Part shown: positions 58,892 to 63,684 of the stretch, piece after piece
Numbering within the stretch: position 1 is the stretch's first letter
Layout of the letters: each line of letters begins with the position of its first letter
Source of the DNA: Saccharopolyspora galaxeae
GTDB taxonomy: Bacteria; Actinomycetota; Actinomycetes; Mycobacteriales; Pseudonocardiaceae
Direction of reading: 5' to 3'
NCBI RefSeq assembly: GCF_016526145.1
Contig: NZ_JADDUE010000001.1
Location: 124,001-188,000, forward strand
DNA: 64,000 nucleotides
Program-made: the position numbers and the translations under genes
Notes under the pieces: model-generated
Databases searched by the model: none
What the model was told of the DNA's origin: nothing
What the model saw: the letters and a program-made list of their open reading frames with translations, nothing else

Positions 58892-59509
58892 GGCGACTCC
58901 TTGATCACATGTGCGGACCGTCGCGGGCTGGACGTCGGCGGTGCTGACGATCCCGCTGCGGAGGGTCCCGGTGGCCGGCCCGGACCCCGCGTGCTCGGCA
59001 TCCTGGCGGCCACGAGTGGCGCTTTCACATCTTCCCAGCAACCGGGACCCGTCCGGCTCGCTGGATCTCTTCAGCTCCCGGGCGGTTCCAGCACCGCCAG
59101 GTGCGGCCGGCCGGCGGCCGCGCAGCTGGTGAAGCGGCGTGCGCGGATGGCCGGACGCTGCCGTGGCGGCTGGGCAGGCGGTCGGTCTGACTGGTGCGTC
59201 CAGATTCGGCCGATCACGTGCAGTGTGCCGCTCGCGCCGGTGCGGCGGGGCGGGGACATGCCGGGGCCGGTGTCGACCGAAGGGGTGGCTTCGCGCGGCC
59301 GCGTCCCGCTCGGTGGAACACCTGTGCCCGCGTCAGGCAATTACCGACATAGTGTCGCAGGTCACCCTGGATGGGTTGGAGTTACTGCGTGGCGTATGCA
59401 TTCGGTCACGTTGCTGGCGCACATAGTCACTATCTAGCGTGAGGCGAAGCCTCCCGGGTCGCCAACTGGTGTGAGGCGGAACGTCCCGAGCTGTGACGGA
59501 AAGGTGATC
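58892..59509. other. Spacer upstream of the isonitrile-synthase-like gene
   Basis: This 618-bp stretch has no gene I can support. It contains CACATGTG at 58906-58913, CGACA/TGTCG around TAG at 59345-59357, ATAGT/ACTAT around C at 59423-59433, and the hairpin GAGGC-GAA-GCCTC at 59441-59453. Short open frames on both strands look like chance. Confidence 0.5.
59411..59440 (+). promoter_or_regulatory. Candidate promoter of the isonitrile-synthase-like operon
   Basis: TTGCTG at 59411-59416 and TAGCGT at 59435-59440 have 18-bp spacing. The perfect palindrome ATAGT-C-ACTAT at 59423-59433 lies in the spacer, where a repressor could act. Confidence 0.35.
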
Positions 59510-59680
59510 GTGAGCTACTGCGGCGTCGCGCCCCGTTCTCCCCGTTCCCGAATGCCCTGCACCCCGGGGAACGCCGCCGTCCGGCAGGTCCACCCGTCCC
59601 CACCGTCCAGAGAACTCGCCGCGGGCACTTGCCGCCCCGTCACCGGGGGCGTCCCCGCGCACCACCAGTTCGCCCGGTGA
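59510..59680 (+). CDS. Possible small coupled ORF before the isonitrile-synthase-like gene
   Basis: A 56-codon frame from GTG 59510, with GGAAAGG 5 nt upstream, ends in a TGA that overlaps the next start as GTGA. The product would start MSYCGVAPRSPRSRMPCTPG and has three Cys. No family is known. The good ribosome site and stop-start overlap argue for translation. The unusual composition argues against a conserved protein. It could serve as a leader peptide. Confidence 0.35.
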   Translation: MSYCGVAPRSPRSRMPCTPGNAAVRQVHPSPPSRELAAGTCRPVTGGVPAHHQFAR

Positions 59681-62600
59681 CCGCGCGAACGCCGGTCTCC
59701 CGGCCGGTCCCGACACCGCGAACAACACCGGAGCAGTCCCGCCGCGGCCTTTGGGCGCCGTTGTGCGCTTCGGAAGCGGACGCGATGTTGCAAGCAGGCG
59801 GCTACACCGAGCGCGTCCGCTGGTCCGCGGGTGAGCTCCGGCTGGTCGGTTCCCGCGGCCGGGGAGTGCCGCTGGGCGCCGAACCCGCCTGGGCCGACCT
59901 GTTTCGCGCGCTGGTCCGCTGCCGGTCCAGGCGCACCCGGCACGATCCGCGTTGGCTCCGGCGGCTGAGCAGGCAACTCCCCGGGCCGGCGCCGGATCTT
60001 CCAGCAGCGGACGGTTTCGCGGCAGTGGTGCGCACGGATCCGGTGCTGCGGATGCACTGCGCGGTGCTCGCCGCTCGCGCGGAGCACGCGGAGCCGAGTC
60101 CGCAACACCCGGAGCACCCCGGCGGAACCATCGCGGCCGGGTCGCGCGCGCTGGTCGAACCTGGCCCGGACGGTGCTCCGGCGTTGCTGAAGCTGCTGGT
60201 GGACAACCGGTTCGAGCACCGCGAGCACGAGTTCGGGTTCTTCCTCGAGCGCTTCGTGCGCCCGGCGGTGCGCGCTTTCCGCATCGCACTGGAGCAGCAC
60301 CGCGCGGTGCTGTTCGCGGGCGAGGACGCGCGACCCGCCTTCGAGCTCTCACCGGAACTCGCGGTCACCGGCCGAGTCGTGGCCACCGGCGTGGTCGCGG
60401 ACGCCCACCCGGTCGCCGTCGCGCGCGGTGCGCGGTCGTTGCGCGGTGCGCTCGACGAACTCGGCGCCGCTTTCGACCGCATCGGATACCGGCCGTTCGC
60501 CGCGGAATCCGCGCGCGCGGGGATCGAACGGGTGCTCACCGAGGAGTTCCGATACCTGCAGCCGCGCACCGCGCGGCTGCTCGGGTCGGTTGCGCAGTTG
60601 CGGCCGTTCGCGCACACCGTCGAGTCCGAACAGGACGAACTGCTCCGGCACGTGCTGCACCAGGTGCAGGAGCGCACCCGGAAACGGCGGTGGGACCGCT
60701 CGTTGCCCCAGCCCGCGGTGGTGATCGACCTGGACCTGTGCGGCATCGTGCCGTTGCGCCGCACCGTCGAAGCCACTCGCGCGATCGCCGGGCCGCGGCC
60801 GGGCGCACCGGAGGGCATACCGGAGCTCGCCGGCCCGGACTCGCTGCCGGTGCTGCCGACCTGCGCCGAAGCCACCTGGCAGCGGTTCGTCGAGCTCAGC
60901 GGGCTCGGCGCGCAGTATCCGGCGGTGGACTGGCCAGCGGTGCACACCGAGTTCTCCCGCGCTCTAGCCCGACCCCGGGAACTGCTGCGCACCGACGTGG
61001 TCAACGCGGGCCTTGCCCGGTTCGCGTGGGACGTGCGCGACGCGGGCGGCCAGGTCGTGTTCTGCACCGGACGCGACGAGCAGTTGCGCGAGCACACCGA
61101 CGCGGTGCTGGCGGCCGCGGGCGTGCCGACCGCTCCGCTGCTGTGCATGCCGGACGGGAAGGCCGAGGCACTACCGGAACTGCGCGAGCTCGACGTGGTC
61201 GCGGTGTTCGGCGACCAGCGGGAAGGCCGGATCGCGCTGGGCGAGGCGTTCCCCTCCGCGTTGACCATCCGCGTGCAAGTCCCCGGACTGGTGGCCGAAC
61301 GCGAACAGCCGCACGCGCAGCGCGCGATCGCGACGTTCGAGACGACGCCGCGCGCGCCCGCGCCCGGTCCCCGGTTGTCGCACACGCACTCGCTGGAGGA
61401 ACTGCAGATCGGCGAACTGCGGGCGAACCGGTCCGCGCAGGACTGGGCCGTCCGGCTGGACCACGCGGAATCGCTGGAGCTGGTCCGGTCGGTGCGTGCC
61501 GACGCCGACCGCGCCGCCGACCGCCTCGCGAGCAGCGCGCGCAGCACCTTCGCGCTCGACGAACCCGGAACGCAGGAGCAGCGGGTGGAACGCACCTTGC
61601 GGGCGCTGCACCACGTGCTCACCCGCAAGCAGTTCCGCAAGGGGGCGCGCGCGAACTACCAGGTGGCCGACCTGCGCCGCGACGCCGAACCGTTCGTGCG
61701 CGGCGACCAGCCGATCGACGTGGTGCTGCTGGGCTTCCCGGTCAAGCAGCACCTGAACGGGCTGAAGGCCTCCGGGCCGCTGCCGGACCTCGCCGAGCTG
61801 GGCTCGCTGCTGCGGCTGCGGGAGATGCACCGGGCGGCGAGCGCTGTGCACCCGCCGGGGCTGCGGTTCCGCATCCTCACCGACGGCAGGCACTTCCGGC
61901 CGCGGCCGGCGTCGATCACGGGTGCCTACGTCCGGAAGCTGCGGGAGTACGCCGAACTGGCAGGCATCGCCGAGGCTTGCGCGATCGAAGAGGTGGACGC
62001 GGCCGCGGCACGCAGGATCGGCGGCGACCTGACCGCCGAACGCGCGGTCCGCGCCGCCCGCTACCGGCGGCTGCTCACCGAGGCGTTGCGGGGCCTGGAC
62101 ATCACCGACGACCCGCTGCGCACCTTGGACAGCGCGCACGCGCGAGCGTCCGAAGTGGACGATTCGGTGGCGCCCGCGCTGGTGTTGTTCCGGGAAATGC
62201 TGATGTCGCTGGTGTACTCGGTGCCGCTGCCGGTGCCCTCCGGGATGCGGCGCGGCACCTGGGCGCGGCTGGTGTATTCGGACGTCTACGACCTCGCGGG
62301 CAGCGCGGTGCCGCCCGCGGTGCGGCAGGCGCGCGCGGACGTCCTGCGCCGAGCCTGGCACATCGTGATCCGCTACCTGGCCACGCTGCGGGTCGACGAG
62401 GAGCTCGGGTACGAGGAGATGTTCCCGAACCGGATCCGCCTCACCGTCAGCGCCGCGCGCCGCGGGCGGTGCGGGTTCACCTACCTCGGCGGTTCCGGCC
62501 TGTTGCCGTGGCAGGGGACGGGGGCGGTGGATGCGCGCGGAACGGTGGGTGCGGACTTCGCGGTTTCCTTGCAGGACCAGGGATTCGTGCCGGTCTACTC

Positions 62601-62721
62601 CGCGCTGCTCGGGCCGCGCCAACCGTGGTTCGCGGTGCCCGCCGGGTGCACCGTTCCCGGGCGCGGGGAGGTGCGGCTCGATCCCGAACTGGTCGCCCGG
62701 GCGCGGCTAAGGCGCAAGTAG
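59677..62721 (+). CDS. Multidomain protein: unknown N-terminal region, HAD-like domain, PvcA/DIT1-type isonitrile synthase domain
   Basis: About 1014 residues. Residues 1-335 are unassigned; ALLKLLVDNRFEHREHEFGF and RIALEQHRAVLFAGEDARPA faintly recall IucA/IucC or FhuF-type siderophore proteins. Residues ~345-545 look HAD-like: VVIDLDLCG (Asp351, Asp353), VFCTGRDEQ (Thr464), a DGK lysine and VFGDQREGR (Asp513). Residues ~610-1010 resemble PvcA/DIT1: GFPVKQ (686-691), LKASGPLPDLAELGSLLRL and FRILTDGRHFRPRP (TDGR at 735-738). Known relatives convert the amine of Tyr or Trp to an isonitrile using ribulose 5-phosphate. The start could also be upstream at 59629. No oxygenase partner is seen. Confidence 0.72.
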   Translation: MTARTPVSRPVPTPRTTPEQSRRGLWAPLCASEADAMLQAGGYTERVRWSAGELRLVGSRGRGVPLGAEPAWADLFRALVRCRSRRTRHDPRWLRRLSRQLPGPAPDLPAADGFAAVVRTDPVLRMHCAVLAARAEHAEPSPQHPEHPGGTIAAGSRALVEPGPDGAPALLKLLVDNRFEHREHEFGFFLERFVRPAVRAFRIALEQHRAVLFAGEDARPAFELSPELAVTGRVVATGVVADAHPVAVARGARSLRGALDELGAAFDRIGYRPFAAESARAGIERVLTEEFRYLQPRTARLLGSVAQLRPFAHTVESEQDELLRHVLHQVQERTRKRRWDRSLPQPAVVIDLDLCGIVPLRRTVEATRAIAGPRPGAPEGIPELAGPDSLPVLPTCAEATWQRFVELSGLGAQYPAVDWPAVHTEFSRALARPRELLRTDVVNAGLARFAWDVRDAGGQVVFCTGRDEQLREHTDAVLAAAGVPTAPLLCMPDGKAEALPELRELDVVAVFGDQREGRIALGEAFPSALTIRVQVPGLVAEREQPHAQRAIATFETTPRAPAPGPRLSHTHSLEELQIGELRANRSAQDWAVRLDHAESLELVRSVRADADRAADRLASSARSTFALDEPGTQEQRVERTLRALHHVLTRKQFRKGARANYQVADLRRDAEPFVRGDQPIDVVLLGFPVKQHLNGLKASGPLPDLAELGSLLRLREMHRAASAVHPPGLRFRILTDGRHFRPRPASITGAYVRKLREYAELAGIAEACAIEEVDAAAARRIGGDLTAERAVRAARYRRLLTEALRGLDITDDPLRTLDSAHARASEVDDSVAPALVLFREMLMSLVYSVPLPVPSGMRRGTWARLVYSDVYDLAGSAVPPAVRQARADVLRRAWHIVIRYLATLRVDEELGYEEMFPNRIRLTVSAARRGRCGFTYLGGSGLLPWQGTGAVDARGTVGADFAVSLQDQGFVPVYSALLGPRQPWFAVPAGCTVPGRGEVRLDPELVARARLRRK

Positions 62722-63047: not shown

Positions 63048-63386
63048 CTAGGGCACCGGCGCGGCCGGGCGCAGCTCGTGCGCCGGGCGCTGGTGCCTGG
63101 CGGGACGGGGTGCGAGGGCACCGGCGACCAGGTGCTCGTAGGCCGAGCGCCACACCGAGCACGGTGCGCTGCGGGGGCGCCATCGGGTCGAGCACTCCGT
63201 GCAGTTGCCCTTGTCGTCGGTGTCGTGAGCGGCCAGCAGCGTTCGCCACCCCTCGGTCAGCCGAGGGAGCTCGGAACGCGCCACGGACAGCAGGGACGGG
63301 GCGTCCGCGCGGTTCGCCAGCTCGCTCAGCACGTCGAGCCGCTCCCACACCGCGTTGCGCAGCACCTGACCCAATACCTCGTCCAC
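63048..63386 (-). CDS. Hypothetical Cys-containing protein of Pseudonocardiales type
   Basis: A 112-residue protein. The N-terminal half is helical (MDEVLGQVLRNAVWERLDVL). The centre has CTECSTRWRPRSAPCSVWRSAYEHLV with three Cys, a possible metal site. The Pro/Arg-rich tail is disordered. Similar short proteins with a Cys-x-x-Cys and CPVWR-like block accompany XRE regulators in this order, from general knowledge. GTG 63386 lies 13 nt after the next upstream gene. Confidence 0.65.
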   Translation of the reverse strand: MDEVLGQVLRNAVWERLDVLSELANRADAPSLLSVARSELPRLTEGWRTLLAAHDTDDKGNCTECSTRWRPRSAPCSVWRSAYEHLVAGALAPRPARHQRPAHELRPAAPVP

Positions 63387-63399
63387 CGAAACGTCACCG

Positions 63400-63684
63400 T
63401 CACTCTCTCGCCTGCTCAGCGGCCTTCCGCAGTGCGTTGCTCAACTCGCCGACTCCGTCGGTCGACAGCACCACGGTGCGGCCGGGCGGTCCGACGAGAA
63501 CCACCCTGTCCCGGTTGACCAGCACGGTGAGGTAGCGGCGGATGTGCAGCACGTCGCGGCACAGCACCCGCCACCAACGGCGGCGGCCGGCGGTTCCGGA
63601 CTCCGGTCCGGCCTGCGCGGGCACCGGGACGCTGCCGGTGGGCTCCGCGCCGGACCGCGGGTCCGACTCCTTGATGCCGTCCAC
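63400..63684 (-). CDS. Hypothetical small protein
   Basis: A 94-residue protein. After a Pro/Gly-rich N-terminus (1-45), the rest (YLTVLVNRDRVVLVGPPGRT, VVLSTDGVGELSNALRKA) is compact beta-then-helix and resembles short orphan proteins common in Pseudonocardiaceae. It is 13 nt upstream of the Cys-containing gene, so the two form a small operon. No function is known. The start GTG 63684 lacks a close ribosome site. Confidence 0.6.
   Translation of the reverse strand: MDGIKESDPRSGAEPTGSVPVPAQAGPESGTAGRRRWWRVLCRDVLHIRRYLTVLVNRDRVVLVGPPGRTVVLSTDGVGELSNALRKAAEQARE

Follow-up and report, generated by a model that had tools for sequence, protein, structure and literature searches.

The gene considered here lies on the forward strand of a 64,000-nt stretch of the Saccharopolyspora galaxeae genome (GCF_016526145.1, contig NZ_JADDUE010000001.1, positions 124,001–188,000), referred to below as the window, whose own numbering is used throughout. 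Its product joins three parts in one polypeptide: an N-terminal region with a predicted fold like that of the nonribosomal peptide synthetase (NRPS)-independent siderophore (NIS) synthetases, a phosphatase-type domain of the haloacid dehalogenase (HAD) type, and a C-terminal domain of the DIT1/PvcA family of isonitrile synthases (isocyanide synthases; ICS), part of whose active site is altered throughout the clade. We have high confidence that this three-part architecture is real and conserved. The best explanation of the protein as a whole, to which we give an even chance, is that it carries out C1-N chemistry on a changed amine.

The open reading frame (ORF) at 59677–62721 is a real single gene. 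Its translation runs for 1014 residues with no internal stops, which confirms the one continuous frame joining three regions that had been described in an earlier annotation made from the sequence alone (the first-pass annotation). A GTG is found at the aligned start position in all seven genomes checked, and this conservation makes it the probable start; a simple GC-based gene caller set the start at 60025 instead, so that conservation is what supports the first 116 residues. When 60 related genomes were searched, some match was obtained in 20, a count which takes in ordinary PvcA proteins, and in four out of four genomes of the same genus residues 1–1014 were matched end to end with 66–67% identity. 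Purifying selection acts on all three regions, the ratio of nonsynonymous to synonymous substitution (dN/dS; Nei-Gojobori) being 0.09–0.58 in each of 15 comparisons (five pairs by three regions). The full-length AlphaFold2 model, built from 57 sequences, is that of one compact protein (pLDDT 89.7, pTM 0.89). In a profile search, the gene was the sole PF05141 match found in its own genome.

Residues 554–1014 belong to the DIT1/PvcA isonitrile synthase family, as is evident from both profile matches and predicted fold. The first-pass annotation had staked this assignment on a family match within residues 610–1010, and one is present: DIT1_PvcA (PF05141) exceeds its curated cut-off at residues 673–764 (E value 3e-11; 43.8 bits against 26.4). 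A phmmer search of the PDB sequences returned isonitrile synthases at residues 670–740 (E value 7e-5), and a profile made from 14 sequences of the ICS part matched PIsnA and PvcA in the PDB with E values of 3.4e-12 to 5.2e-11. With the full-length model as a Foldseek query, PIsnA and PvcA rank first (E values 2.6e-9 to 6.6e-8), the best ICS structures being 9dhm (E value 2.6e-9; target TM score 0.66) and 3e59 (E value 2.7e-8; target TM score 0.59).

The active site of this domain was compared between 58 subfamily sequences and 23 canonical actinobacterial ones, two of which are identical and represent one locus. The canonical set consists of members of the FPxK/PDxAE type; the search pattern did not pick up L103, L104, L105 and L107, whose motifs are shaped differently, and the window's own entry, L106, was taken out. 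Residues K690, K697, G700, P703, D704 and D736 are kept in 58/58 subfamily sequences, while E707 (57/58), F687 (45/58) and G737 (44/58) are less strict, although all three are present in the window. Other positions differ, chiefly in the second half. The Trp of RSxAW and the His of RLSIH (column 925), each found in 23/23 canonical rows, occur in 0/58 subfamily rows, and D907 occupies the Trp column in all 58. A Phe that is likewise invariant in the canonical rows (23/23) is S844 in 58/58, and the Ser which follows FPxK is replaced by Gln or His in 58/58. At the PWH position, His is present in 21/23 canonical rows, whereas the subfamily has Gln in 34/58 and His in 24/58. The clade has thus preserved most of the half with FPxK and PDxAE, while the other half is changed in all its members. 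The earlier claim that the PvcA motifs are all intact therefore stands for FPVK, PDLAE and TDGR, which are where they had been placed, and fails for the second half, where the invariant residues are replaced in 58/58 sequences. The protein also fails the NCBIfam equivalog test for L-tyrosine isonitrile synthase, with 24 bits against a cut-off of 600. Since only half of the active site is conserved, "isonitrile synthase" would be best understood as a homology label for the C-terminal domain.

Motif and predicted fold show the region at residues 335–553 to be a HAD domain of the phosphatase type that has retained its catalytic residues. Catalysis in HAD enzymes depends on a DxD motif, a Thr or Ser, a Lys and an Asp, and the window keeps all five positions (D351, D353, T464, K495 and D513). 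Four of them, Asp351, Asp353, Thr464 and Asp513, had been located correctly by the first-pass annotation, and its combination of a HAD and a PvcA/DIT1-type domain in one protein is borne out by the agreement of profile, motifs and predicted fold. Foldseek matches include the phosphatase-bearing MtlD (7ocs; E value 4.2e-4) and the class B acid phosphatase AphA (1z5g; E value 5.1e-4), with a target TM score of about 0.5. In the window, no curated Pfam HAD profile exceeded its cut-off (14 bits against 27), and Acid_phosphat_B was matched below threshold (E value 0.035). A profile of the HAD part matched 112 of 345 genomes of the class, the window's own included. Three of three scanned HAD proteins from other actinobacteria exceed the HAD_PNKP cut-off, while four of four scanned fused HAD domains of relatives fall below the Pfam cut-offs (HAD_PNKP, PF25109; PF03767).

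The five HAD positions are all kept in 11/18 rows of Saccharopolyspora copy a, 14/14 rows of copy b, 1/1 of Halopolyspora and 2/3 of Kutzneria (the third row is cut), and in 0/6 of Actinopolyspora. The segment is missing from 14 of 57 rows, and none was found in Actinoalloteichus and Halosaccharopolyspora. The domain has therefore been lost or inactivated more than once. The ICS part cannot depend on it, since several lineages have it in decayed form or not at all, and the idea that the HAD domain is an essential partner of that part was rejected, given catalytic residues in 0/6 Actinopolyspora rows and a segment missing elsewhere.

The first-pass annotation had left the N-terminal region unassigned, but it can be placed. 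The case is good, though not certain, that it has an NIS-synthetase-like fold, a likeness shown by the predicted structure and, weakly, by sequence. As query we used the longer orthologous region of S. rhizosphaerae, which is 45% identical to that of the window and was modeled from 31 sequences (pLDDT 84.0, pTM 0.83). The first 22 PDB matches reported by Foldseek are all NIS synthetases (E values 6.2e-8 to 5.1e-5), and the rest of the list is dominated by kinases. An hhalign comparison with 20 NIS proteins (L139, which has no frame, was left out) gave a colinear alignment with a score of 32.4 (E value 0.0046); 60 shuffles of the columns scored no higher than 24.7, and the reversed profile scored 14.6. 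PF04183 did not match the region even at an E value of 10, although the same search picked up two genuine NIS proteins encoded at other sites of the genome. The motif H-x-(Q/E)-N, which we take to be the NIS synthetase signature, is present in 20/20 true NIS proteins and 0/31 N-terminal regions. Sequence searches of the region against the PDB gave no credible match, and those against Pfam gave seven families, each in one of 31 members (best E value 0.0045). When 345 genomes of the class were searched with it, two weak matches with internal stops were obtained besides the window. S. rhizosphaerae has a second copy whose N-terminal part is shortened to about 165 residues. As the signature motif is absent, the region looks catalytically dead, and it would seem to be an eroding NIS fold devoid of ATP chemistry. 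An active NIS synthetase was considered and rejected on the lack of a PF04183 match and a signature count of 0/31.

Within the taxonomic family to which the window belongs, a match was found in 86 of 249 genomes searched, 59 of them at E < 1e-100, the level of the subfamily. A profile of the ICS part yielded 46 loci in named genomes; a search for related loci with the single window protein as query had found no relative. The loci belong to Saccharopolyspora, Actinopolyspora, Halopolyspora, Halosaccharopolyspora, Kutzneria, Actinoalloteichus, Gandjariella and Nocardia panacis, and take in several metagenome-assembled genomes (MAGs), mostly labeled Pseudonocardiales or Pseudonocardiaceae, and one strain labeled Streptomyces. 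By profile, 30 have all three parts, three have the N-terminal and ICS parts, two have HAD and ICS (one of these is cut by a contig end), and 11 have ICS only. The 30 include six Actinopolyspora loci with a degraded HAD part. They also include L073, L074 and L088, from Nocardia panacis and two Kutzneria, none of which entered alignments A4 and A5, since their profile match extended upstream past a stop codon. Inspection by eye shows a short N-like core in L084, which is among the 11. Fourteen of the 46 loci, every one from Saccharopolyspora, have a second copy that starts about 4.4–6.8 kb downstream, and S. kobensis also has one (L086). This paralogue is shorter, about 805–885 residues where complete (e.g., L036:14198–16615 and L046:13872–16274). 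In Actinoalloteichus caeruleus (L040:8864–11745 and L072), the N-terminal and ICS parts are in different frames with no HAD found, which could be a split pair or a frameshift.

In a tree of the ICS parts of 58 subfamily members and four canonical enzymes, from which partial matches (copy b of L058 and of L075) were left out, most stand-alone forms separate from the N-bearing forms, with split supports of 0.79 and 0.91. The stand-alone side holds MAGs, Gandjariella and one Kutzneria protein. The tree has a long outgroup branch, and it places among the fused forms one locus, L084, that is stand-alone by profile. The tree would be compatible with one fusion followed by losses.

Table 1. Features of the three-part gene and its upstream region (window numbering; residue numbers refer to the protein)
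Feature	Position	Strand	Basis
Whole gene, three-part protein	59677..62721	+	Open frame; 1014 codons plus stop, GTG start
NIS-synthetase-like (IucA/IucC fold) region, residues 1–334, signature motif lost	59677..60678	+	Foldseek, hhalign; residues 1–17 of low confidence
HAD phosphatase-like domain, residues 335–553	60679..61335	+	Foldseek fold matches, family profile, motifs
HAD motif I, D351-L-D353	60727..60735	+	Sequence, alignment
HAD motif II, T464	61066..61068	+	Sequence, alignment
HAD motif III, K495	61159..61161	+	Aligned with the conserved lysine of ELKV; the window lacks 8 residues immediately before it
HAD motif IV, D513	61213..61215	+	FGD in the window, FDD in most relatives
Divergent DIT1/PvcA (isonitrile-synthase-like) domain, residues 554–1014	61336..62718	+	PF05141 profile, PDB profile matches, Foldseek
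First-half ICS motifs: FPVK (687–690), K697, PDLAE (703–707)	61735..61797	+	Alignment of 58
TDGR motif (735–738)	61879..61890	+	D736 in 58/58, G737 in 44/58
Changed ICS stretch in the second half: D907 where canonical enzymes have W, RLTVS 921–925 where they have RLSIH	62395..62451	+	Alignment
PWQ 944–946 (canonical PWH)	62506..62514	+	Alignment
Conserved non-coding element upstream of the gene	59395..59437	+	Strong conservation

The pattern of the non-coding element upstream of the gene recurs in 32 of 127 fetched loci, of which several share a genome; in the genome of the window its first part has a single occurrence at up to two mismatches. It is possibly a promoter or regulator site. An Rfam scan of the kilobase upstream of the gene and a promoter scan both returned nothing. 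Downstream, two small ORFs on the reverse strand (63048–63386 and 63400–63684) are conserved, with seven and four members, respectively, in the first neighborhood set, and have no Pfam match. A tetratricopeptide repeat (TPR) regulator of the NsdA family occupies the DNA from 63906 to beyond the end of the window (L029:17907–19274); after it come an APH-type protein and a small protein of unknown kind. This NsdA/APH/small-protein run is found near the ICS gene in many loci, for fused and stand-alone forms alike; it is the run that lies between the two copies, and in several MAGs the stand-alone gene is in the same run. Genes for a CopC-domain protein and a DUF1775 (YcnI-type) protein are located about 4–5.5 kb downstream (L030:891–2146).

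In the mechanism that we propose, the ICS domain would use the shared sugar-phosphate-enzyme site (FPxK, K, PDxAE, DG) to make a C1-N bond, as an isonitrile or an N-formyl group, from a pentulose phosphate. Because the whole clade has exchanged residues that never vary in the canonical set, the amine substrate would be something other than free tyrosine or tryptophan; it is this residue pattern which suggests that the sugar phosphate side has been kept and the amine side changed. The HAD domain, where intact, would remove phosphate from substrate, by-product or product and would be dispensable, while the NIS-like part might be a docking or substrate-holding module with no ATP-dependent synthetase role. 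As the three-fold combination was found nowhere described, the protein may make an as yet undescribed small molecule.

Several observations weigh against this reading. The PF05141 match spans just 94 of 273 profile positions, the second half of the ICS domain aligns to canonical enzymes at low identity, and the changed residues could mean another reaction altogether. The fold similarity of the N-terminal region is partial (query TM score 0.31–0.46 and root mean square deviation of about 9–16 Å over the 22 matches), NIS proteins are absent among the 50 matches listed by Foldseek for the full-length window model, and the hhalign probability against NIS proteins is only 7.6%. Neither a 2-oxoglutarate oxygenase nor a P450 turned up among the neighbors profile-scanned from 51469 to about 13.7 kb past the end of the window, a scan which covered called genes only, with three of them omitted. 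The transporters beyond the CopC/DUF1775 genes are of betaine/choline types, and, of the neighbors in other genera, which were read by eye, those in Kutzneria are different ones and suggest no pathway.

As a whole, the first-pass interpretation is partly supported. Its statement that the window lacks an oxygenase partner stands from 51469 to the window end, the first 51 kb lying outside the profile scan. Its suggestion that the HAD domain acts on a phosphorylated donor or product may yet prove right. Of the checks that it had proposed, profile searches placed DIT1_PvcA above its cut-off, with HAD below threshold and IucA/IucC (PF04183) unmatched. Structure prediction gave the ICS and HAD folds from the full-length model and the NIS-like fold from the S. 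rhizosphaerae orthologue. A neighborhood survey of homologues revealed the recurrent NsdA/APH/small-protein run, with neither an oxygenase nor a P450 among the neighbors scanned.

A more conventional account would make the protein a plain isonitrile synthase, acting on tyrosine or tryptophan with ribulose 5-phosphate, in which the HAD domain only clears phosphorylated by-products, i.e., a routine enzyme with extra domains. The PF05141 score and the isonitrile synthases that head the PDB matches by both sequence and fold are what this account predicts, but we consider it unlikely in view of the equivalog score, the replacement in 58/58 sequences of the Trp of RSxAW, the His of RLSIH and the Phe at column 844, and neighbors with no oxygenase partner among those scanned. 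It is also rather unlikely, though to a lesser degree, that the enzyme is like Dit1, and that the amine which it N-formylates, or modifies with C1 in some other way, is destined for a component of the cell wall or spore wall and not for a secreted metabolite. Dit1 resembles isocyanide synthases and yet is reportedly none, most likely making formyl tyrosine and no isocyanide, according to PMC7345447; family membership therefore does not fix the product. The similar chromosomal setting in many genera, near an NsdA-type regulator, would suit such a role, whereas a Dit2-like P450 is missing from the neighbors scanned.

The protein could instead be wholly non-catalytic, with three pseudo-enzyme folds whose ligand binding would serve regulation or development. 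An NIS-like part without its motif, a HAD domain that decays repeatedly and an ICS domain without its second-half residues could all be accommodated, as could neighbors that include an NsdA-family regulator and a phosphotransferase of the APH family. The retention of K690, K697, D704 and D736 in 58/58 sequences and of five intact HAD residues in the window, in 14/14 copy-b and in 11/18 copy-a Saccharopolyspora rows makes this improbable in our estimation. That two or three genes have been read as one, through an assembly error or a chance frame in high-GC DNA, is scarcely credible. DNA of this kind does yield long spurious frames, and long frames are present on the opposite strand too; the A. 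caeruleus parts are in different frames, and the gene caller preferred the later start. Against this stand the occurrence of the three parts together in 30 of 46 named loci, the end-to-end matches in 4/4 genomes of the genus, purifying selection in all regions and a confident, compact model. Conservation and selection largely refute a chance frame or assembly fusion for the gene of the window, and this candidate was rejected.

The proposal of C1-N chemistry on a changed amine could be carried further. Isonitriles can bind metals, and the protein might be a one-polypeptide assembly line for a metal-binding molecule, in which the ICS domain installs the C1-N group on an amine presented by the NIS fold, the HAD domain releases phosphate, and the product is a metallophore. 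Copper is a possible ligand because of the CopC and YcnI/DUF1775-type genes about 4–5.5 kb downstream. We regard this extension as improbable. If it were true, current cluster-finding rules might miss the product, because the gene lies outside any recognizable cluster; a preprint on fungal clusters states that current mining software misses ICS clusters (PMC10153163). Whatever the product, the clade makes it possible to test directly whether the ICS fold accepts new amines, and how the fold of a siderophore synthetase persists after its signature has been lost.

Each of the three parts has well-described relatives. The N-terminal region is similar in predicted fold to the NIS synthetases SbnC (7cbb), IucC (6cn7), AcsD (2x3j) and IucA (5jm8), with a weak colinear profile match, and differs from them in having neither a PF04183 match nor H-x-(Q/E)-N. 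The HAD domain has the fold and the DxD, TGR and lysine motifs in common with HAD_PNKP (PF25109) and the class B/C acid phosphatases (PF03767); unlike these, it is embedded between two folds, scores below both cut-offs in the four domains scanned and decays in some lineages. The C-terminal domain resembles PvcA (3e59) and PIsnA (9dh4/9dhm) of the DIT1/PvcA family (PF05141) in fold and in the first-half FPxK, K, PDxAE and DG. It has about 460 residues against 315–330 for the solved chains, its second-half invariants are replaced, it is fused to two other folds, and no oxygenase partner was found among the neighbors scanned. The first-pass annotation had held that known isonitrile synthases are single-domain proteins, which the published fusions contradict. 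According to Lim et al. 2018 (PMC5974471), ICS alone and ICS-dioxygenase are the two common bacterial architectures, ICS-dioxygenase fusions occur in bacteria and fungi, and ICS-NRPS is found in fungi. No earlier description of the NIS-like, HAD and ICS combination, or of ICS fused to a HAD or NIS-like part, was recognized in the literature searched, where most subscription papers fell outside reach. The fusions described by Lim et al. likewise join ICS to further domains, but their partners are a dioxygenase (PF02668) or NRPS-like, whereas those of the window protein are HAD and NIS-like. ICS fusions with other domains were thus already known, and what seems to be new here is the arrangement of NIS-like, HAD and ICS parts with a changed active site.

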